Shown here piece after piece: positions 3,893-62,911 of a DNA stretch of 63,468 bases (positions are counted from its first letter, which is position 1; each line of letters begins with the position of its first letter). The stretch lies in the IMG/VR virus record IMGVR_UViG_3300020202_001225, positions 1 through 63,468 of that record. One strand, 5' to 3'. Source of the DNA: a virus. The notes below the pieces were generated by a model. The model ran no database searches and had not been told where the DNA came from. It saw nothing but the letters and a program-made list of their open reading frames with translations. The position numbers and the translations under genes are program-made.

Positions 3893-4383
3893 GCTGCTGC
3901 TTTCAGTTCGATGCCGAGCAGTTCGCCCAGGATTTCGAAGACGCGGGTCTTCACGGCCTGAAACTCAGGGGCCTTCATGGCGGCGTGCGATTGGCTCTTG
4001 GCGGTGTAGGTGGTCAGGACGTTGCCGCGCAGGGTGATGACGGCGTAGCTGTCCCGGCGGCGCAGGCGCTCAAGCCAGCGCTCGGCCTCGGCCCGGCTTT
4101 CACAGACCTCTTCGACGACATCGCACCAGCCGGCACGGATGAGCAGGTTCTTCCGAAAATGCTCCTCGGTCGGCCAACGGTCCTCGCCTTCGGGGAGGGT
4201 GTTGAAGCACTCGCGGATCACGGCGAAGAAGTGCCGATGGCTGGCGGGGCTGCGCTCCTCGACCGGCGCCAGGGTCACGCACTCACCTTCGCCATAAGTC
4301 TCGTTGCAGAGCCTCGCGAACCGGGGCGCCGGGCGAAACGCTCCGTCGATGAACGTGCAGGGGATCGGGCTGATCGTGGTCAT
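3889..4383 (-). CDS. Conserved phage protein of unknown function
   Basis: 164 residues. The opening SPIPCTFIDGAFRPAPRFAR, then LAPVEERSPASHRHFFAVI and later AVITLRGNVLTTYTAKSQSH match a protein type I recall from alphaproteobacterial prophages close to recombination genes; no activity is known to me. It sits in the operon below the YqaJ/ERF pair, so a part in early DNA metabolism is possible but unproven. Confidence 0.7.
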   Translation of the reverse strand: MTTISPIPCTFIDGAFRPAPRFARLCNETYGEGECVTLAPVEERSPASHRHFFAVIRECFNTLPEGEDRWPTEEHFRKNLLIRAGWCDVVEEVCESRAEAERWLERLRRRDSYAVITLRGNVLTTYTAKSQSHAAMKAPEFQAVKTRVFEILGELLGIELKAAA

Positions 4384-4516
4384 CGGAAGTGATCGGGGGC
4401 CGCTTTTTCGGCCGCACCCCCTCCCTCACTGTGATTGTCGCCCCCGGAAAGGCCGCCAGGACCGCACGGCAGAACGCGCGGGCCTCGACCACCTCCGGGG
4501 TATCGGATAGCTTCAC
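4283..4516 (-). CDS. Small phage protein overlapping the next gene by 101 bp
   Basis: 77 residues starting MKLSDTPEVVEARAFCRAVL just 3 bp after the exonuclease gene. The first 45 residues look protein-like (FPGATITVREGVRPKKRP), but the rest is coded in a second frame over the start of the next gene and looks like shadow sequence. Either a long overlap or a recently extended gene; moderate doubt. Confidence 0.45.
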   Translation of the reverse strand: MKLSDTPEVVEARAFCRAVLAAFPGATITVREGVRPKKRPPITSDDHDQPDPLHVHRRSVSPGAPVREALQRDLWRR

Positions 4517-4519
4517 GGG

Positions 4520-5146
4520 TCACGCGGCGGCCTGGAGATAGCGGGCCGTCAGCTCCTCGAGCTTGGCGTCCAGTTGGGCCAGAAAGTCGGTGACCTCGGC
4601 CTCGGCTTCAGCGATGAACGCGGGGTCACGGGGAACCCGCTGAATGAACAGCCGCATGGCCTCGGGAAGCCTGGGATCGTAGCTGGCGAAGTCGCACCAC
4701 GCCCGTCCGGTGCAGGCCATCTGCCACTGCATCTGCGTGACGTACTTCGCCGGGACCGCGCCGCCCAAGAGGGTGTCGAGGTGCGTGGCCGTGTTGGGGC
4801 ACTTGATCTCCAACATGCCGTCTTCGCCGACCAGGCCGTCGGGGCTAGCGCCGGTCATGGCGATCACCGGATGATCGACGAAGCCGACCTCGACCACGTC
4901 CACGTCAGCCATGAAGGCGTAGGCGGCGCGGGCCTCCGGTTCCTTGTCGGCTCCCCACTGCATCGCGGCGTTGGTGAAGCCTTCGGTCCTCACACCAGCG
5001 AGCCTTTCGGCGATCAGCTCTGCCATGTAGTTGGCTCGGCTGGCGCTGTAGCCGGTCTTCGTCTTGGCGATCACGTCCGCTACGCGGGAGGCGGTGACCT
5101 TGCCAAGCCGGGCGGCGAACCATTCGGGGGAGCCCTGGACGATCAT
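4520..5146 (-). CDS. YqaJ-type viral recombinase exonuclease
   Basis: 208 residues, the usual length for YqaJ/lambda-exonuclease-like enzymes of the PD-(D/E)XK fold, which digest one strand of double-stranded ends for annealing-based recombination. Visible motifs: N-terminal QGSPEWFAARLGKVTASR, ATP-independent core with ASPDGLVGEDGMLEIKCPN (catalytic Asp, Glu-x-Lys), and VTQMQWQMACTGRAWCDF near the end. Its start overlaps the stop of the ERF annealing-protein gene by 4 bp, so the two are translationally coupled as expected for a working pair. Confidence 0.92.
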   Translation of the reverse strand: MIVQGSPEWFAARLGKVTASRVADVIAKTKTGYSASRANYMAELIAERLAGVRTEGFTNAAMQWGADKEPEARAAYAFMADVDVVEVGFVDHPVIAMTGASPDGLVGEDGMLEIKCPNTATHLDTLLGGAVPAKYVTQMQWQMACTGRAWCDFASYDPRLPEAMRLFIQRVPRDPAFIAEAEAEVTDFLAQLDAKLEELTARYLQAAA

Positions 5147-11229: not shown

Positions 11230-11952
11230 ATGATCTGGGCTTTGGTCGCCGCCGAGGTTGTTTGCGGATCACCAGCGGACATTCCGCCACTCCCGCAAAC
11301 CCACACCGACTTGGTCGTGGAGCGAAACTACAAGGCCGGGGAGGCCGTGACGGCGGTCGTTGGCCAAACGGTGGTGCGTGCCAAGAGCTTGTACGTCACT
11401 ACCTCATACAGTTGGAGCTGGGTGACGGACCGCGATGTCACGATTACGTCCCAAAAGTTCACGCTCTTCCTGCCGGCCGGCAGCAAACTCAAGAGCATGG
11501 ATCGCCGCCGGAGCGCGAGCGGTGCGGTTGTCGAAATCGCTGCAGCGCGGCAGTACAGCGACAGAACAATAGCGGCCCTTCAGCTCGACGGCGCCGGCTG
11601 TGTGGCGGATCATTACGCGTTCACTCTGCGCAATGGCGCCTGGCGCGAACACAAAAATCCGACACTGTTCACGCCGGAGAAGCCGAAGCTGACGCGGCAG
11701 CTGGTGGCGACGAAAGCGTCAGTCCCTGGGACGTTGAACTACGAGATCATCTACGTAGGCCAAGATGGGCCGTCTATCCGGTTTGAGTATCGGGAATACA
11801 CAGCTGACGACCTCGCTAGGCCGGCATTCTCGCAAACCTTGGCCTATCCGAAAGGTGCCCAGCGATTCCGTTTTCGCGACGTTGCCTTTCAAGTTCTCAG
11901 TCTGAAAGATGACGAGATAACAGTTCGGATCACGCCGTCAGAAGGTGATTAG
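11230..11952 (+). CDS. Hypothetical exported protein inside the immunity region
   Basis: 240 residues from ATG 11230, with GGGAGG upstream. The N-terminus MIWALVAAEVVCGSPADIPP is hydrophobic and may be a short signal sequence. The rest looks beta-rich (LYVTTSYSWSWVTDRDVTIT, VVEIAAARQYSDRTIAALQL, FRFRDVAFQVLSLKDDEITV). No family recognised. It lies between the early operon and the repressor, converges with the repressor gene with a 15-bp overlap, and stands alone in orientation, the position of a cargo (moron) gene that may be expressed in the lysogen. Confidence 0.65.
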   Translation: MIWALVAAEVVCGSPADIPPLPQTHTDLVVERNYKAGEAVTAVVGQTVVRAKSLYVTTSYSWSWVTDRDVTITSQKFTLFLPAGSKLKSMDRRRSASGAVVEIAAARQYSDRTIAALQLDGAGCVADHYAFTLRNGAWREHKNPTLFTPEKPKLTRQLVATKASVPGTLNYEIIYVGQDGPSIRFEYREYTADDLARPAFSQTLAYPKGAQRFRFRDVAFQVLSLKDDEITVRITPSEGD

Positions 11953-12642
11953 CGGACGCTGTTGAATAGGTCGCACTGTGTAAGACGAGACCACCACACC
12001 GATGATTTCCGGGCCGTCATCCGCGTCTCGAACGCTATCGATCCGAATGGGTTCTTGGAACGCCGGGTCGCTGGACCTTGGCCACAGGGCGACGCCCCGC
12101 TTTTCCTTGACCACTTCCTTGAGGGTTGTCTCCACAAGCCCTCCGCGACGGCGGCGCACCACAACGTGGTCACCCTCGCGCACGCCGATTTCTGCAGCTG
12201 GGCACACCACCACCATCGTCCCGTCGGGATAATGCTGGTCCATGGAAGGTCCACGCACCCGCAAGGCGAACAACTGGGCGCCCTCAAAGCCCGCTAGATG
12301 GATCGGGATGACTTCCGGGTCGTCGGGCTCGTCGAAGACTTCAGCGAACACGCCAGCCTGTATCACGCCGATCACGGGCACCATTCGCGTGACCGCACGC
12401 ATCCCGACTGGCGGAGACGGGGGCGGCATCTCGTCCAGGTCGCCGCGTCCGTAAAGGAGCCACTCGGGGGAGACGCGGAAGAACTTGCCGTAGCGCTCGG
12501 CCCGGCCAGCCGGGATCCCCCGCAACTTCCCCTCATGCTGGCTGTAAGTCGGGTAGGGGACGCCCATCGCCTCGGCCGCTGCCTTAGCGCTAGCGTAGCC
12601 TGCGCGCTCTCGCGCCAGCCGCAGCCGATCCCCCGGTTCCAT
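11938..12642 (-). CDS. LexA/CI-like phage repressor with S24 peptidase domain
   Basis: 234 residues from ATG 12642. Helix-turn-helix: LRLARERAGYASAKAAAEAM, then GVPYPTYSQHEGKLRGIPAG. The S24 domain follows: VPVIGVIQAGVF contains the Ala-Gly cleavage-type site region, VRGPSMDQHYPDGTMVVV gives the catalytic Ser box, and VVRRRRGGLVETTLKEVV holds the position expected for the Lys partner region. Such repressors keep the lysogen silent and cleave themselves on RecA activation. Operators ATGC-N5-GCAT flank the gene on both sides. The frame extends upstream to 12843, but it would run through the operator region. Confidence 0.9.
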   Translation of the reverse strand: MEPGDRLRLARERAGYASAKAAAEAMGVPYPTYSQHEGKLRGIPAGRAERYGKFFRVSPEWLLYGRGDLDEMPPPSPPVGMRAVTRMVPVIGVIQAGVFAEVFDEPDDPEVIPIHLAGFEGAQLFALRVRGPSMDQHYPDGTMVVVCPAAEIGVREGDHVVVRRRRGGLVETTLKEVVKEKRGVALWPRSSDPAFQEPIRIDSVRDADDGPEIIGVVVSSYTVRPIQQRPLITF

Positions 12643-12668
12643 GGCATCACGCCTTAGATCATCGGAAT

Positions 12669-12707
12669 ATGCAAAAGGCAGTTGCGAAGCGGGTCTGCAA
12701 AATGCAT
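12669..12707. promoter_or_regulatory. Repressor operators, right pair
   Basis: ATGC-AAAAG-GCAG at 12669-12681 and CTGC-AAAAT-GCAT at 12695-12707, again with starts 26 bp apart. They cover the rightward promoter and lie just upstream of the repressor start, so they can also control the repressor's own transcription. Confidence 0.75.
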
Positions 12708-12710
12708 ATT
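12682..12710 (+). promoter_or_regulatory. Rightward early promoter giving a leaderless mRNA
   Basis: TTGCGA (12682-12687), 17 bp, CATATT (12705-12710). The Cro-like ATG at 12718 begins only 7 bp after the -10, so transcription should start at or next to the A of the ATG. No ribosome-binding site fits in between. Confidence 0.7.
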
Positions 12711-12717
12711 CACCGTC

Positions 12718-12948
12718 ATGCGCACCCATCAGGACATCATCCGGGACGCCGGGCCGCAGAAAATCCATGAGGCGGTCGGGTTTACGGGCCAGCTGAACAC
12801 CGTCTTGTCGTGGCGGCAGCGAAACAGCATCCCGCGCGAGCACTGGGCGGCCCTGGCCGACGCGAAGATCGCGAGCCTCAAGGAGTTGGCGCTGGCTGCG
12901 CCGCCCCGGAAGCGGCGCTCCGCGTCACCGTCGCAGGTGGCCGCCTGA
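12718..12948 (+). CDS. Cro-like small HTH regulator
   Basis: 76 residues: RTHQDIIRDAGPQKIHEAVG, then TGQLNTVLSWRQRNSIPREH and WAALADAKIASLKELAL. The pattern (paired helices, then SWRQRN-IP-EHW) is that of Cro/CarD-position small regulators in alphaproteobacterial phages. Its position, divergent from the repressor and first in the rightward operon, fits a Cro-type antirepressor. The mRNA should be leaderless. Confidence 0.75.
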   Translation: MRTHQDIIRDAGPQKIHEAVGFTGQLNTVLSWRQRNSIPREHWAALADAKIASLKELALAAPPRKRRSASPSQVAA

Positions 12949-19194: not shown

Positions 19195-19799
19195 GTCGCA
19201 AAGCCAAGAAGAAGTCGCCCCAGCAGATCGCGGCCGGCAGCAAACGCATCCGAAAGTCGGAGGCCCAGCTTGCCCGAGAAGCGGAGGAGCAGCGCGCCCG
19301 CGACTTCGAAGCGCTAGGCCTGCCTGGGCACATCGCAAACCTGCCCACTCAGGCCGATGTCCTGGTCGAGCGCGCCACCCGCCAGTCCGCCGACAACCGG
19401 GGAAACGTCGACCGGGCGCGTCGTCAGGCTGGCTTGGACTGGCTCTGGAACAAGAAGCGGTTAGAGCCGCACCAGATGCAAGCGGGCCTCAAGTATGGCG
19501 ACGACTACCGCGCCGCTACGGATGCCAGGGTTCGGTCCTGTATGGCCAGCGCGACAGGTGGCGATCTGATGTTCGCACAGGAGCACCGCGCCGCTGCGCG
19601 CCAACGGCTATTGAAGGCGCAAAAGGAGGGGCTGGCTAATCACCCGTCCATGACCAACCTTTGCAACCGGGTTGCCGGCGAGGGTGAGCGGGTTACAGAA
19701 ATCGCCAATGGAAACGACCCGGAAGCCAAGAAATTAGAGGCCGTGTTGTGCGTTTCCCTGGACCTGCTCGCCAAGCACTATGGTATCATTACTGCATGA
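19191..19799 (+). CDS. Phage protein, possibly DUF6456-like
   Basis: 202 residues. A basic N-terminus (SRKAKKKSPQQIAAGSKRIR) precedes a helical region; the later RRQAGLDWLWNKKRLEPHQM, QAGLKYGDDYRAA resembles DUF6456-type proteins of alphaproteobacteria, which are thought to be regulatory. The end LCVSLDLLAKHYG fits a helix. The match is from memory and moderate. Confidence 0.55.
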   Translation: MSRKAKKKSPQQIAAGSKRIRKSEAQLAREAEEQRARDFEALGLPGHIANLPTQADVLVERATRQSADNRGNVDRARRQAGLDWLWNKKRLEPHQMQAGLKYGDDYRAATDARVRSCMASATGGDLMFAQEHRAAARQRLLKAQKEGLANHPSMTNLCNRVAGEGERVTEIANGNDPEAKKLEAVLCVSLDLLAKHYGIITA

Positions 19800-20434
19800 T
19801 CCGTTCTGTTTACATCATCGGCGTCGGAACCGCTCCGGTTAAGGTGGGTGTCGCCGACGACGTCATCGCTAGGCTGGCGACCCTACAGATCGGCAACGCC
19901 GATGCCTTGGTCCTGCACCATGCGGTAGCCCTGCCCTGGGGTGTGGCACAACAGGTTGAGGCCGCTGCGCACAGGGATCTGGCGCCCTACCATCGGCGCG
20001 GAGAGTGGTTCAATGTTACGTCCGTCGAGGCAAGGCGGGTTGTGGAGGCATTGGCTGGCCCCATGATCGCCAAGTGGCGCGCGGGCTCCTACAACAGCGG
20101 GGACACGCTTCTGCGTCTGGTGACAGATCACCAGGTCAGCCCGTGGGCATTTGAGGCGCTGCAGCACTATCGCGCCCGATGCGCGGCCAAGGACACCCAG
20201 GCGGTTCAAGCGATGAACCGAGCCATTCTCGACGCTGAGGGCGCCGCCTGCTTGACCGCCTTCACCATGTTCGTCTCCAAGGGCGGTAGCATCGCGGGCA
20301 TCCTCAGCCGCGCGCCGGAGGCAGCGCACAAGGCGCTTGCAGCGCTCGCCCGTGGCACGAATGCCCTTTGTGCCCATTGGCGGGCACAGCAGGACGCATC
20401 CCTGCTTGACGAAATCCAGAGAAACGTGGCATGA
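19796..20434 (+). CDS. GIY-YIG-like (T5orf172/Mug113 type) protein
   Basis: 212 residues from ATG 19796. SVYIIGVGTAPVKVGVADDV, IARLATLQIGNADALVLHHA, VEAAAHRDLAPYHRRGEWFN follows the T5orf172/Mug113 branch of the GIY-YIG fold, in which Tyr-Ile-x-G, the Arg of IARL and the Glu of GEWF are key. The C-terminal 110 residues are helical. It ends the rightward operon. Nuclease activity is likely but not certain. Confidence 0.7.
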   Translation: MIRSVYIIGVGTAPVKVGVADDVIARLATLQIGNADALVLHHAVALPWGVAQQVEAAAHRDLAPYHRRGEWFNVTSVEARRVVEALAGPMIAKWRAGSYNSGDTLLRLVTDHQVSPWAFEALQHYRARCAAKDTQAVQAMNRAILDAEGAACLTAFTMFVSKGGSIAGILSRAPEAAHKALAALARGTNALCAHWRAQQDASLLDEIQRNVA

Positions 20435-20501: not shown

Positions 20502-20756
20502 CTACTCTCCCCGGATCATCGCCGCCAGACTGAGCGCATCCCGCCGAACAGACGGCAGCGCCAAGTCTATGTTCCCCTGACTGAGGGCCAGGGCAAGTGA
20601 GACCCGCTCCACGGCGAGGGCATGGAGATTGCGGAGCTTCGAGGCGCCGGCTTCTACGTCCTGGTAGGCTCGATGGCTTAGGCCGATGAGGTCGGCCATC
20701 TCCGCCTGTGTAATGCCTGCCCGGTCTCTTAGGGCCTTGAGGTCGCCGACATTCAT
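20502..20756 (-). CDS. XRE-family HTH regulator
   Basis: 84 residues from ATG 20756: VGDLKALRDRAGITQAEMAD, LIGLSHRAYQDVEAGASKLR is a clear XRE helix-turn-helix, followed by HALAVERVSLALALSQGN. It faces the end of the rightward operon and starts next to the structured region; the 12-bp inverted repeat at 20793-20822 lies about 40 bp before its ATG and is a natural operator. GGAG is the ribosome site. Confidence 0.8.
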   Translation of the reverse strand: MNVGDLKALRDRAGITQAEMADLIGLSHRAYQDVEAGASKLRNLHALAVERVSLALALSQGNIDLALPSVRRDALSLAAMIRGE

Positions 20757-20792
20757 TGATTTTTCTCCGGTTACCTGATACCCCTCCGGAGA

Positions 20793-20822
20793 GCCTAGGC
20801 GGGACGGGAATCCCACCTAGGC
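20793..20822. promoter_or_regulatory. 12-bp inverted repeat before the XRE gene
   Basis: GCCTAGGCGGGA (20793-20804) and TCCCACCTAGGC (20811-20822) pair with one mismatch around a 6-bp centre. It is in the promoter region of the leftward XRE gene, and fits a dimer-binding operator as well as an RNA hairpin. Confidence 0.5.
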
Positions 20823-20959
20823 CCCCCGGTTACTTCCGGAAGCTGATTTGGACTTGTAGGACCTTCAGCTTCCAGAACCGGAGTAGGAGTTTGAAGCGAA
20901 GCTTCATTTCTTCCTCCGAGTTGCCGGCTGGGGGTCAGCCGGTAAGAATGTTGTACGCG

Positions 20960-21006
20960 GAAACTGCGCATAGGTCAACAGCCTAGCGCAGTTTCTTCGT
21001 ATTTTT
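20960..21006 (+). terminator. Strong hairpin followed by a T-run
   Basis: GAAACTGCGC (20960-20969) and TAGG pair with CCTA and GCGCAGTTTC (20982-20995), 14 bp with one bulged A and a 7-nt loop. ATTTTT follows at 21001-21006, 6 nt after the stem. It fits a terminator for the rightward early operon. Confidence 0.5.
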
Positions 21007-21239
21007 CTCGCGGTAAGCCGCAGAAACCACGCATCTCCCCGTATAGGCAGACAGGTTAAGGCGCCGACCTTGTGAAAGGCGCTCCAAGTTTCAGCGGCGG
21101 CGTGGAAACGTAGACACGCAGGTCCGGGTACACTGATCGGCAACCACGCAGGGAAACCTGCTTAGGGCTCGTTCAGAGCCGGTTTAACGCCCGGCCCGCT
21201 GAAAGCCATTCAGTTCGCGCCCACGGCCTTCCTCCCTCG

Positions 21240-21285
21240 GGGCCTGCGCGAGGCCCATCGGTAGAGCTTCTGTTCCCGATGGGCC
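21240..21285 (+). promoter_or_regulatory. Mutually exclusive hairpins before the first late gene
   Basis: GGGCCT/AGGCCC (21240-21245 with 21251-21256) and GGCCCATCGG/CCGATGGGCC (21252-21261 with 21276-21285) are both perfect and share GGCCC at 21252-21256, so only one can form at a time. The second ends 6 nt before the AGGAG ribosome site of the gene at 21304. This is the layout of an RNA switch or attenuator. Confidence 0.45.
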
Positions 21286-21303
21286 AACCTACAGGAGACA
21301 GCG

Positions 21304-21504
21304 ATGCACCCCGACAGCCAAGCGGCCATCATTGCAAACGACCTCGATAGCCTGGTGCACCGCATCGAGGCTCTTCCGGCGCATCCGGAGAACACGGCTG
21401 CGCTTAACGCCGTTCAAGCGGCCCGGCAGGCGATCAACAAGGCTAGAGCCGACCTGCACCAGAGCGCCATGCGGGAGCGTTTCGCCGCTTCGGACGCCGC
21501 CTAA
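21304..21504 (+). CDS. Small helical-hairpin protein, first gene of the late operon
   Basis: 66 residues: AAIIANDLDSLVHRIEALPA, then NTAALNAVQAARQAINKARA. Two amphipathic helices are likely. AGGAGA stands 8 nt before the ATG. It follows the alternative-hairpin element directly. No family assigned. Confidence 0.6.
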   Translation: MHPDSQAAIIANDLDSLVHRIEALPAHPENTAALNAVQAARQAINKARADLHQSAMRERFAASDAA

Positions 21505-21571: not shown

Positions 21572-21766
21572 ATGAACCCCACCCCCACCGAATGGCAAGA
21601 AACCGGCCGGGACCGCACGGTGACCAGAGGGGTCTTCGTCAGGCGGCAGGTCCGCCAGGTCGAGGAGCGCCGCTACGTCTTTCGGCCAGTATCGCGGGGT
21701 TGGACCCCCGCCAACTGGCGGGAGCAAACGCGGTGGCGAGAGTGCGGTCCAAGCCGGCGCCCATAG
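21572..21766 (+). CDS. Small basic hypothetical protein
   Basis: 64 residues from ATG 21572: TGRDRTVTRGVFVRRQVRQV, then RPVSRGWTPANWREQTRWRE. Arg- and Trp-rich. The gene lacks overlap with neighbours and its ribosome site is weak; real but uncertain. Confidence 0.4.
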   Translation: MNPTPTEWQETGRDRTVTRGVFVRRQVRQVEERRYVFRPVSRGWTPANWREQTRWRECGPSRRP

Positions 21767-22584: not shown

Positions 22585-22962
22585 ATGGGTAAGGCCAGCC
22601 GCCTCTCAAGCCCGACCGGTAGGCTGATCCTGGCCTCACACCGCCTGTCGCACTCGCCCACCCAAGATCCCGAGCCAACCACCCCTAACCAGTCTCCGTG
22701 GAAGGCGTGGTACAACACAGCCCAATGGCGCAGGCTCCGCCTAGCCACCTTTGAGCGCGACCGCTTCACCTGCCAGATGTGCCGGAAGCTCGAAGGTGAC
22801 ACCTCTCAGCTCGTCTGTGACCACAAGCAGCCCCACAGGGGCAATGCCACCAAGTTCTGGAATCCCGACAACCTCCAGACCCTCTGTAAATCCCCCTGTC
22901 ATGACCAGCACAAGCAAGCCCAGGAGCAAGACAGCCGGTGCCACCAGGGGACATGGGACTAA
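22585..22962 (+). CDS. HNH endonuclease next to the terminase genes
   Basis: 125 residues. RLRLATFERDRFTCQMCRKL, then LVCDHKQPHRGNATKFWNPD, NLQTLCKSPCHDQHKQAQEQ: a complete HNH with two CxxC-type pairs and the DH centre. HNH proteins placed directly before TerS/TerL take part in packaging cuts in HK97-like phages, so a role in cos cutting is likely. Confidence 0.88.
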   Translation: MGKASRLSSPTGRLILASHRLSHSPTQDPEPTTPNQSPWKAWYNTAQWRRLRLATFERDRFTCQMCRKLEGDTSQLVCDHKQPHRGNATKFWNPDNLQTLCKSPCHDQHKQAQEQDSRCHQGTWD

Positions 22963-23086
22963 CCCCCGGGGGGGAGGGTCCAAAATCCTATCAAGTCGGT
23001 GGGAGAAGACCGGCGGCCAATCACGGAGAGATTATTTCCGGCCCGGGGGATTTGAGTCCCGCGAACCTCATTGCGAACGGAGACCG

Positions 23087-23653
23087 ATGACCGAAACCAG
23101 GAAGCCGATCGACTGGGCAGACATCGAGCGCGACTACAGCACGAGCCCCATGTCCGTAAGGGAAATTGCCCGATGGCATGGCGTGACGGAGGCCGCGATT
23201 CGCAAGCACGCCAAGAAGGCCAAATGGGTGAGGCCCGAGACGGCGCCCGGTTCGCAGCAGGAGCCGCGCACTCCACCCCCAGTCAAGGTCTACGTTGGGA
23301 CGGTTCTGACCCCGGAGAACACGACCCCTGAGGCCATTGTCGACAGGGGTCGCGCGCTTGCCATGCGGATGCTCGATGAGTTGGACGCTTCCACGAGCAT
23401 GATGGGCGAGTTGGAGACGCTGATCACCGCTGGCATCGAGGGCGACAACGACAAGCAGCGCGAGGCGGCCCTTGCGGCGGTCTCGTTGAAGACCCGGGCG
23501 GAGGTTCTGAAGTCGCTGGCAACCGCGACGAAGACCTTCGCTGAGAGCGGGGCTCCGGCGGGGATCAAGAAGCAGCGCCAGGAGGCCGGGGAGCGGGTCG
23601 CGAGGGGAGGGGGCAAGTTCGCCGCGCCGCCGCCGCCGAGGATCGTTCAATAG
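23087..23653 (+). CDS. terS: Terminase small subunit
   Basis: 188 residues from ATG 23087. The N-terminal helix-turn-helix (MSVREIARWHGVTEAAIRKH, AKKAKWVRP) recognises phage DNA; the centre (LAMRMLDELDASTSMMGELE, AALAAVSLKTRAEVLKSLAT) is the oligomerisation part. It is followed with no gap by the large subunit. The 124 bp before it (22963-23086) hold no gene and may include the packaging site. Confidence 0.85.
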   Translation: MTETRKPIDWADIERDYSTSPMSVREIARWHGVTEAAIRKHAKKAKWVRPETAPGSQQEPRTPPPVKVYVGTVLTPENTTPEAIVDRGRALAMRMLDELDASTSMMGELETLITAGIEGDNDKQREAALAAVSLKTRAEVLKSLATATKTFAESGAPAGIKKQRQEAGERVARGGGKFAAPPPPRIVQ

Positions 23654-25324
23654 GTGGAGTGGTCCACCGCCTGCGTCGACTGGCAAGACCGGATTGTCGC
23701 CAGGCGCTCGCTGATCCCGTCACCACTGTTTGCCGATGAGGCCCGCGAGGCGCTGGAGGTCTTCAAGTCGCTGCGGATCGTGGACGCGCCCGGCAAACCG
23801 ACTTTCGGTGAGGCGTGCGATCGGTGGGTGTTCGACTTCGTCTCATCGATCTTCGGCGCATATGACGCGGAGACGGGCAAGCGCCTGATCCGCGAGTTCT
23901 TCCTCCTGATCTCGAAGAAGAACTCCAAGTCCACCATCGCGGCCGGAATCATGCTCACCGCGCTGATCCGCAACTGGCGGCACTCGGCGGAACTTCTGAT
24001 CCTGGCGCCGACCATCGAGGTTGCCCAAAACGCCTACAACCCGGCCCGGGACATGGTGAAGGAGGACGAGGAGCTGACCGACCTCCTGCATGTGCAGGAC
24101 CACCTTCGAACGATCACGCACCGCGAGAACGGCGCGATGCTCAAAGTGGTGGCGGCCGACACCGATACGGTCTCCGGCAAGAAGGCGGGTCACATCTTCG
24201 TCGACGAGCTGTGGGTGTTCGGCAAGCGCGCCAAGGCCGATGCAATGCTCCGCGAGGCGACCGGCGGCTCTGTGTCGAGGCCGGAAGGGTTCATCATCTG
24301 GGCGAGCACCCAATCGGACGAAGAGCCGGCCGGGGTGTTCAAGACCAAGCTGGACTATTTCCGCGATGTGCGGGACGGCAGGATCGAGGACCCCCGCAGC
24401 TTGCCGGTGATCTATGAGTTCCCGGAGGCGATGGTTGAATCGGGCGAATATCTGAAGCCTGAGAACTTCTACATCACGAACCCGAACCTTGGCCGGTCGG
24501 TCGATCAGCGCTGGCTTGAGGATGAACTTCGCAAGGTCAGGGACGCGACCGGTGGCGAGAAGCAGGTCTTCCTCGCCAAGCACCTCAACATCGAAATCGG
24601 CCTGAAACTATCGAACAACCGATGGGCCGGTGCGGACTATTGGGAGGCCGCCGCCGACCCGACGCTTACGCTGGATGAGCTACTTCGGCGATCGGAGGTC
24701 TGCACGATTGGCCTGGACGGTGGCGGTCTGGATGACCTTTTCGGCTTGGCGGTCGTCGGCCGATGCAGGGAAACCCGAACCTGGCTTCTGTGGAACCGGG
24801 CCTGGGCGCATGACGACGTCCTTCAGCGGCGCAAGGACATCGCCAGCAAGCTGAAGGACTTCGAGCGCGACGGCGACCTGGTGATCTGCAAGGACCCGAT
24901 GGCGCCGATCATCCAGGCGGCGGAAATCGTCGAGCGCGTATATCTGGCCGGCCTACTGCCGGAAAAGGACGGGGTCGGCCTGGACCCGGCCGGCGTCGCG
25001 ACGCTGGTTGACGAGTTGGAAGACAGGGGCGTCGGGATCGGCCTGCAGGTCGCGGTGCGGCAGGGATATGCGCTTTCTCCCGCATCCTGGGGATCTGAGA
25101 TCAAATTGAAGAATGGCTCCCTGAAGCACGGTGGCCGACCGATGATGGCCTGGTGTGTCGGAAACGCGAAGGTCGAGGTTCGCGGCGGCGCGGTTGTCAT
25201 CACCAAGCAGTCGGCGGGACGGGCCAAGATCGACCCGCTGGTGGCGTCGTTCAACGCGATGATGCTGATGAGCCGGAACCCGTCGGCGAAGTCGGCTCCC
25301 AAATACCAAATGATCGTAATCTAG
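23654..25324 (+). CDS. terL: Terminase large subunit
   Basis: 556 residues, GTG start directly at the end of terS. ATPase: Walker [10 protein letters not shown] near residues 86-94, Walker [11 protein letters not shown] near 180-189. Nuclease: [20 protein letters not shown] near 351-370 gives the first catalytic Asp; [20 protein letters not shown] and [20 protein letters not shown] complete the domain. It packages DNA into proheads. The HK97/phiE125-like (Terminase_1) type. Confidence 0.95.
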
Positions 25325-31333: not shown

Positions 31334-31943
31334 ATGGCCGATCTGGGAAGCGGCGGCGGTCATCGCCTCCGGTCCCTCTACGAAACGGGAAGACGTAGAA
31401 AGCCTGAAGGGTCGCCTCCCGGTCCTGGCGATCAAGAGAAACGTGGAATTGGCCCCGTGGGCGGACGCCGTCTACGGCTGCGATTACCCTTGGTGGAGGG
31501 CGGTTCGCGGGCTGCCTGACTACAAGGGCCTGAAGCTCGCATTCGCCCCCAAGGCGGTGGAGCAATACGGGCTGAAACCGGTGCTGATCCCTGAGCACGC
31601 CAAGTCGGACAAGCTGAGATTTGAAACGACGGGGACCGTGGGCGGCGGCGGCTGTTCGGGGTTCCAGGCCTTGAACCTGGCGGTTCAGTTCGGGGCCAAG
31701 CGGGTCCTTCTTCTCGGCTTCGACTGCCAGGATCGAAGCGGGGTTCACTGGTACGGGCGCAACAACGCTCCGGGCATGAGCAATCCGTCACAGAACAACT
31801 TCGCACGGTGGAAGCGGTCGTTTGGAAACGCTGCGGAGCAGCTGAAGGGGAGGGTCGAAGTGGTCAACGCCTCGCCGATCAGCGACCTGAAGTGCTTTCC
31901 GAAGGGAACGGTCGCGGAGACCTTGGCGAGGTGGGGCCGGTGA
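31326..31943 (+). CDS. MptE/Maf-like (DUF115-type) protein, TTG start
   Basis: 205 residues. A nucleotide-binding-type start IWEAAAVIASGPSTKREDVE and later GFQALNLAVQFGAKRVLLLG, FDC resemble the DUF115/MptE fold found in flagellin-modifying Maf proteins and pyrophosphokinases. The likely TTG start at 31326 overlaps the connector stop; upstream residues in this frame lie over the connector gene and are not protein-like. First gene of the sugar-modification block. A role in transfer of an activated sugar is inferred. Confidence 0.65.
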   Translation: MPEWPIWEAAAVIASGPSTKREDVESLKGRLPVLAIKRNVELAPWADAVYGCDYPWWRAVRGLPDYKGLKLAFAPKAVEQYGLKPVLIPEHAKSDKLRFETTGTVGGGGCSGFQALNLAVQFGAKRVLLLGFDCQDRSGVHWYGRNNAPGMSNPSQNNFARWKRSFGNAAEQLKGRVEVVNASPISDLKCFPKGTVAETLARWGR

Positions 31944-61278: not shown

Positions 61279-61375
61279 CTATCTCCGATATCGTAGTTGA
61301 ACTCTACACCCATCCCTGTTAGGGTCAACCACGATATCGGAGATAGAGATATTTTGACCGCAACCGCGATATCGC
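61279..61375. promoter_or_regulatory. Divergent promoters flanked by 15-bp perfect inverted operators
   Basis: CTATCTCCGATATCG (61279-61293) and its exact complement (61332-61346) flank two facing promoters: rightward TTGAAC (61297-61302), 17 bp, TAGGGT (61320-61325), and leftward TTGACC with TAGAGT. GCGATATCGC at 61366-61375 is a third site. Both transcription starts would fall in operators. Confidence 0.7.
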
Positions 61376-61389
61376 TCACAACGCTCCCG

Positions 61390-61602
61390 ATGCCGGGGCC
61401 AAAGCCGCAAGACCTAGAAGACATCCTCGGGCGGTATCCGCGCGGGACAAAGGAGCGAATTGCCCGGCTGCTCGGCGAGGGGGCGCCCAAGGGCGCGCAG
61501 GCCGAATTGCTACGCGAGGCCCTGGAGAGGGAGCTAAGGCGGAGGGAGCGGCACGCGAAGCTCAAAGCCCTCGCCAAGCCTAGAACCCATCCCGCAGGTT
61601 GA
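61390..61602 (+). CDS. Small regulator candidate, helical
   Basis: 70 residues from ATG 61390; a TTG at 61354 would add 12. MPGPKPQDLEDILGRYPRGT, KERIARLLGEGAPKGAQAEL, LREALERELRRRERHAK: basic helices like ribbon-helix-helix or small DNA-binding proteins. It lies directly after the inverted operators, so it is the best candidate for the protein that binds them. Confidence 0.55.
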   Translation: MPGPKPQDLEDILGRYPRGTKERIARLLGEGAPKGAQAELLREALERELRRRERHAKLKALAKPRTHPAG

Positions 61603-62686: not shown

Positions 62687-62911
62687 TCAGGGACTAGGGG
62701 GCTCAGTCAAAGCCTGCCGAAGGTCGGCAACCTCTTCCAGCCGCCAGGCAATCTCCTCCTGCAGATCTTCCAATCGGGCGCGCATGGCGGCCTCGATAGT
62801 GGGGTACTCGCCGTTGATCCCGGCGGGGATGTCGTGGATGTAGCCCGCGTCGCTCGATATGAAGGTCGCCGGTTCATCCTCGTGGTGTTGCCAAGTCCAG
62901 GTCAGTTCCAT
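62687..62911 (-). CDS. Small acidic hypothetical protein
   Basis: 74 residues from ATG 62911 with GGAGGG upstream: ELTWTWQHHEDEPATFISSD, GYIHDIPAGINGEYPTIEAA, RLEDLQEEIAWRLEEVADLR, the last part a coiled coil. Confidence 0.6.
   Translation of the reverse strand: MELTWTWQHHEDEPATFISSDAGYIHDIPAGINGEYPTIEAAMRARLEDLQEEIAWRLEEVADLRQALTEPPSP

Follow-up and report, generated by a model that had tools for sequence, protein, structure and literature searches.

A conserved structured mRNA leader with an embedded short open reading frame precedes a probably autoregulated HTH gene in rhizobial temperate phages

The window analysed here is the whole of IMG/VR virus record IMGVR_UViG_3300020202_001225, a stretch of 63,468 nucleotides which contains terminase, major head, portal, tape-measure and integrase genes, together with a CI-like repressor gene with a Peptidase_S24 domain at 11938-12843 on the minus strand. 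The middle genes are read rightward up to 20434 and the late genes, likewise rightward, from 21304, the latter reaching the terminase genes at 22751-25324, and between the two lies a leftward gene for an HTH_3 (Cro/C1-type) regulator of 84 amino acids, whose domain scores 33.0 bits against a Pfam cut-off of 23. The interval upstream of this gene, 20757-21303, had been picked out in a sequence-only reading as a dense array of inverted repeats at the early/late junction, a placement which holds in the window and in the relatives with readable flanks. Elsewhere in the window, ARAGORN reported a tRNA-Trp (31631-31710) and a tRNA-Ile (62785-62872), both doubtful since neither reaches the Rfam gathering threshold. 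A 50-kb IMG/VR contig (L019) is 100% identical to the window over 12,218 bases from 23104 onward; the identity begins inside the small terminase gene, and the rest of that contig lacks the 20757-21303 region.

The inverted-repeat cluster is real. A repeat search of 20600-21500 returned 10 inverted pairs, the majority inside 20757-21303 (Table 1), and the GCAGG-GAAA-CCTGC hairpin described earlier was located at 21148-21161. Compared with dinucleotide shuffles, the 561-nt stretch forms much more stable folds on both strands (z -6.7 plus, -7.7 minus), with the signal concentrated in 20757-20946 and in the operator hairpin at 20954-21001; taken alone, 21007-21303 folds weakly. The repeats are two different things, a conserved leftward unit (20757-21006) and a weakly structured second half. 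Their density had been called unlike that of any other gap, which overstates it, as at the 160-nt scale 61281-61440 and 21601-21760 have lower z scores and are clearly more structured. No 160-nt stretch of the window is more structured than the former (z -5.5 plus, -3.9 minus), and the latter (z -3.6 plus, -5.4 minus) lies to the right of the repeat cluster and overlaps small ORFs. Nor does the interval lack a good gene, as had been stated: a 25-codon ORF with a perfect Shine-Dalgarno sequence lies inside it on the minus strand, and the HTH gene starts at its left edge.

Table 1. Positions of features at and around the leader-HTH unit in the window.
Feature	Position	Strand	Basis
HTH_3 (Cro/C1-type) regulator gene, probable autorepressor	20502..20756	-	Pfam HTH_3, 6e-8
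Structured mRNA leader (whole)	20757..20946	-	Covariance-model match; fold z -6.25 (minus strand alone)
P4, long hairpin from ORF stop to HTH ribosome site	20786..20829	-	9/13 pairs double-changed, 98.2% of cells paired
Inverted pair, 19-nt arms	20786/20811		Repeat search
25-codon leader ORF	20830..20907	-	Net charge +8
Inverted pair, 13-nt arms	20834/20865		Repeat search
P3, hairpin in 3' half of ORF	20835..20876	-	Repeats and covariation
P2, hairpin pairing GGAGG (20913-20917) with ORF codons (CUCC)	20886..20917	-	Fold and covariation
P1, 5'-terminal hairpin	20924..20942	-	7/7 pairs double-changed, 98.8% of cells paired
Promoter: -35 TTGACC (20973-20978), 17-bp spacer, -10 TACAAC (20950-20955)	20950..20978	-	Position shared with relatives
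Inverted pair, 16-nt arms	20954/20986		Repeat search
Operator hairpin and TTTTT, terminator-like	20954..21006	+	Read from sequence
Operator-like palindrome CGCAGTTTCCGCG, 13 bp, in -35/-10 spacer	20956..20968	-	Motif, geometry
Operator-like palindrome CGAAGAAACTGCG, 31 bp upstream of spacer palindrome	20987..20999	-	Motif
Weakly structured stretch before first small plus-strand ORF (21304)	21007..21303	+	z -2.3 plus, -1.6 minus
Putative third operator-like site CGCAGAAACCACG, 32 bp further on	21019..21031	+	Motif and spacing
Inverted pair, perfect, 10 nt	21252/21276		Repeat search

DNA searches with the region against phages and plasmids gave no match, and a search with the upstream protein (19748-20434) gave no relatives. 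Terminase relatives, including those 85% identical, are without the unit; covariance model R2 finds none in L001-L100 and, beyond these among the terminase relatives, one doubtful match (L111, E 0.016). The HTH protein of the window matched one phage, Rhizobium phage RHph_TM3_3_3 (L105, 38% identity), in which the parts upstream of the HTH gene follow the same order: paired palindromes, a AACAATCTTACCG start, a hairpin, GGAGG, a 22-codon ORF, a long hairpin and the HTH gene. No annotated feature lies beneath the leader ORF of this phage. Convergent with its HTH gene, and adjacent to it, is a NusG-domain protein (4352-5038, minus strand), a candidate late antiterminator. Two pattern scans of viral contigs, one for the leader start and one for the peptide core, brought the loci with the unit to a total of about 21, and altogether the unit is present in about 25 rhizobial phage, prophage and related loci. 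The leader likewise precedes the HTH genes of L210 (52% identity to the window protein), L187/L211 (45%, L211 being the same contig as L187) and L212 (40%); that of L210 is too diverged for the covariance model, and that of L212 matches at E 4e-11. Across the class, model R2 under strict filters gave 0 matches in 385 alphaproteobacterial genomes, and 7 of the 397 genomes of one order carry the unit, so that it appears restricted to a few lineages of the Hyphomicrobiales. The RNA and ORF lack an HTH gene directly downstream in four genomes (L203-L206), which belong to one small family. In L203 the leader has as neighbours an HD-domain gene and, in convergent orientation, an IscU-like gene, both named from the sequence as read.

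Covariance model R1, built from 20 relatives with the window left out, matched the window over its full length at 20785-20945 on the minus strand (46.4 bits, E 1.9e-10), its next-best match within the window having an E of 0.31. Among 25 sequences aligned to the model, 27 of the 42 base pairs have changes on both sides, 95.5% of cells are paired and double-change cells number 83 against 13.8 in shuffles (0 of 500 as high), in an alignment which is fitted to the structure and includes several nearly identical loci, so that cell counts overstate independent events. The signal collapses when partners are slid by one to three bases, and most of it is borne by P1 and P4. The P1 stem can be checked by eye, being CCGGCTG/CAGCCGG in the window and CCGAAGC/GCTTCGG in relatives. 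The candidate structured RNA proposed earlier is genuine, conserved and covarying, and its identification as a conserved structured mRNA leader before an HTH gene is firm. As had also been stated, no named RNA family fits (Rfam 15, 4227 families, covariance models); low-threshold matches to mir-3155 and HOXB13-AS1_2 in the window are due to chance. Within P2, the start codon of the leader ORF sits in an inner hairpin (20892-20906), and in nearly every sequence the Shine-Dalgarno site of the ORF is predicted to be paired, mostly with codons of the ORF itself (predicted unpaired probability 0.19 in the window, 0-0.39 in the others).

Nearly all HTH-bearing loci possess a TTG-type -35 box, situated 71-76 bases ahead of the ORF and separated by a 17-base spacer from a TATAAC-like -10 box; the exceptions are L188 and L200, in which the promoter scan picked another site, and L187, with a 16-base spacer. 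In most HTH-bearing relatives one palindrome fills the spacer and a second lies 30-32 bases upstream. The operator motif of the window clusters at 20956, 20988, 21019 and 21085, its total number being at chance level. Six palindrome classes correspond to six types of recognition helix, a correspondence seen by inspection of the tabulated pairs rather than by a formal test against overall HTH relatedness: CACGGTTTTCGTG occurs with [AP]FR[ST]YQD, CACGG(TTT/AAA)CCGTG with [PA]LRTYED, CACCAAAATGGTG with PLRTYEN, CACGTAATACGTG with PLRSYQD, CGAACACAGTTCG with TLRGYQK and the GCAGTTTC type with S[KH]RAY[SQ]D. The window (CGcaGAAACtGCG, SHRAYQDV) groups with L187 (TGCaGTTTCtGCA, SKRAYSDL). Together with the promoter geometry, this co-variation of operator and helix suggests that the HTH protein binds the palindromes at its own promoter.

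Eight records of the CCACCAAAATGGTGG class and five of the CACGGTTTTCGTG class each contain the palindrome exactly twice, at the promoter of the unit; these 13 records represent two classes, and several are fragments, the others being 53-67 kb in length. Because operators are found just twice per record in the two classes tested, the HTH protein is read as a repressor of itself only, most likely an autorepressor. In its HTH_3 domain, its paired 13-bp palindromes at a promoter and an operator which tracks the recognition helix, the system resembles the HTH_3/XRE (Cro/C1) phage regulators. It differs from these in that operators occur only at its own promoter (two classes tested), in the separate S24-type CI-like gene at 11938-12843 and in the conserved structured leader with an ORF carried by the gene. 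A role as the main immunity repressor is rejected on the grounds of that separate gene, of the lack of operators elsewhere in the 13 records, some of them fragments, and of the chance-level number of motif copies elsewhere in the window.

We consider it probable, with good confidence, that 20757-21006 comprises the promoter-operator region and the structured 5' leader, with a locked short ORF, of a leftward and probably autoregulated HTH gene. The promoter would start a leftward transcript near 20943, opening with hairpin P1, and the strong ribosome site of the 25-codon ORF would be locked in P2, with P3 lying within the ORF. P4 would separate the short ORF from an independently translated HTH gene, whose product most likely binds the 13-bp palindromes as a dimer and represses no promoter but its own. 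A small cationic peptide is the most likely product of the ORF, and its translation would stay low until P2 is opened, whether by an RNA acting in trans, by processing or by changed conditions.

The leader ORF of the window encodes MKLRFKLLLRFWKLKVLQVQISFRK. In relatives the common form is MSVKLTFQVRFGKWRVTISIGR, and the L212 peptide, MKVLILVRLWKWKVFLSISR, bridges this and the strongly diverged peptide of the window. ORFs of 20-27 codons stand behind a Shine-Dalgarno sequence in the leader loci read, the exception being L205, in which the stop codon is lost and the hairpins are kept, and a peptide core, R-x-G-[KR]-W-[RK], is conserved in most. When 18 distinct 22-codon versions are joined in a minimum spanning tree, amino-acid changes number 35 against 46.2 +/- 3.5 expected (P 0.0015), and pN/pS over all distinct ORF versions is 0.45, a constraint which is partly confounded with that on the RNA. 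This constraint argues, with moderate strength, that the ORF encodes a peptide. Against Pfam and NCBIfam the peptide gave no match, a query of 20-25 residues having little power. These same data bear on the possibility that function resides in the RNA, as a structured sRNA or a stabiliser of the 5' end, and that the short ORF within it is incidental or serves only as a ribosome decoy. The structure looks more constrained than the peptide, the hairpins of L205 persist despite the loss of the stop codon, standalone copies exist and P1 would be at the very 5' end; however, the Shine-Dalgarno sequence and ORF in all leader loci read (in L205 minus the stop), the deficit of amino-acid changes and the core shared by most speak for a translated product. 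An RNA acting alone is unlikely on balance, yet deserves serious weight.

A short ORF and hairpins before a regulatory gene are also the usual anatomy of an attenuator, in which translation of the ORF would control the translation or transcription of the HTH gene. Attenuator leader peptides such as peTrpL of Sinorhizobium meliloti (PMC7298713) are likewise encoded by short ORFs in structured 5' leaders. Unlike these, P4 has no terminator U-run in the relatives read, no conserved pairing couples the ORF to the HTH ribosome site downstream, a ribosome forced onto the ORF does not systematically free that site and four copies have no HTH gene downstream. Control of this kind is rather improbable here.

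On the plus strand, the operator hairpin of the window is terminator-like, and most relatives have a separate terminator-like hairpin (AAGCCGTC..GGCGGCTTTT), which carries a T run and lies immediately beyond the operators. To its right, 21007-21303 contains the GNRA hairpin mentioned above and a hairpin at 21252-21285. No convincing similar sequence was found among the collected relative loci, and by sequence comparison this stretch is outside the conserved unit. Five phage loci carry the alphaproteobacterial sRNA ar35 (Rfam RF02346) near the unit, on the strand opposite that of the leader and about 100-600 bases further on (L186 2537-2652; L189 8014-8144; L193 4252-4381; L197 10449-10594; L198 2888-3018). 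The leader is a separate RNA from ar35, and the window has no ar35 match, which excludes ar35 as the identity of 21007-21303. In L191, where the late region starts, a small ORF to the right of the unit (MDSQAVSQTFTQ...) encodes a 73-aa protein with a resemblance to the Acb2/Tad1 hairpin domain found in anti-defence proteins, although its 25.2 bits fall short of the cut-off of 27.

In type I toxin mRNAs (hok/ldr/tisB) the ribosome site of a very short ORF is folded away in a stable mRNA. The leader could be of this type, a locked mRNA for a membrane-active cationic peptide, countered by a plus-strand antisense RNA which ends at the terminator-like hairpin. The Shine-Dalgarno sequence is occluded, the peptide is cationic and a plus-strand terminator-like hairpin follows the antisense stretch in the window and most relatives, but the promoter scan found no antisense promoter, the peptide is not a typical transmembrane segment (it shows no clear transmembrane helix) and has no family match, and the ORF is apparently cotranscribed with the HTH gene. 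We regard such a toxin-like system as improbable, and as less credible than attenuation. The density of inverted repeats had also suggested one large ornate phage RNA, an origin of replication or a terminator series across the whole 547 bp, which is very unlikely indeed, the conserved RNA being only about 160-190 nt of minus-strand HTH mRNA leader without an Rfam match, the right half weakly folded and without relatives, the terminator scan at chance level and no sign of an origin present.

The reading as promoter-operator region and locked structured leader of the HTH gene may extend to a broader one. Tentatively, at somewhat short of even odds, the unit would be a previously undescribed mobile regulatory cassette, namely a conserved gene, acting both as RNA and through a peptide and with its ribosome site locked, at the early/late boundary of Rhizobiales temperate phages. 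HTH repressors whose operator specificities have been swapped would be plugged onto this cassette, which in one bacterial lineage would stand as a repressor-free chromosomal gene. Literature searches, with subscription papers outside their scope, found no description of the unit. The analysis yields a covarying structured RNA that encloses a small ORF and has no counterpart in the family libraries searched. It sits at a regulatory junction of key importance in temperate phages of rhizobia and contains a putative small-protein gene left out by annotation, as in RHph_TM3_3_3. The repressor helices and their matching operators form, in addition, a natural series that provides a testable DNA-recognition code.
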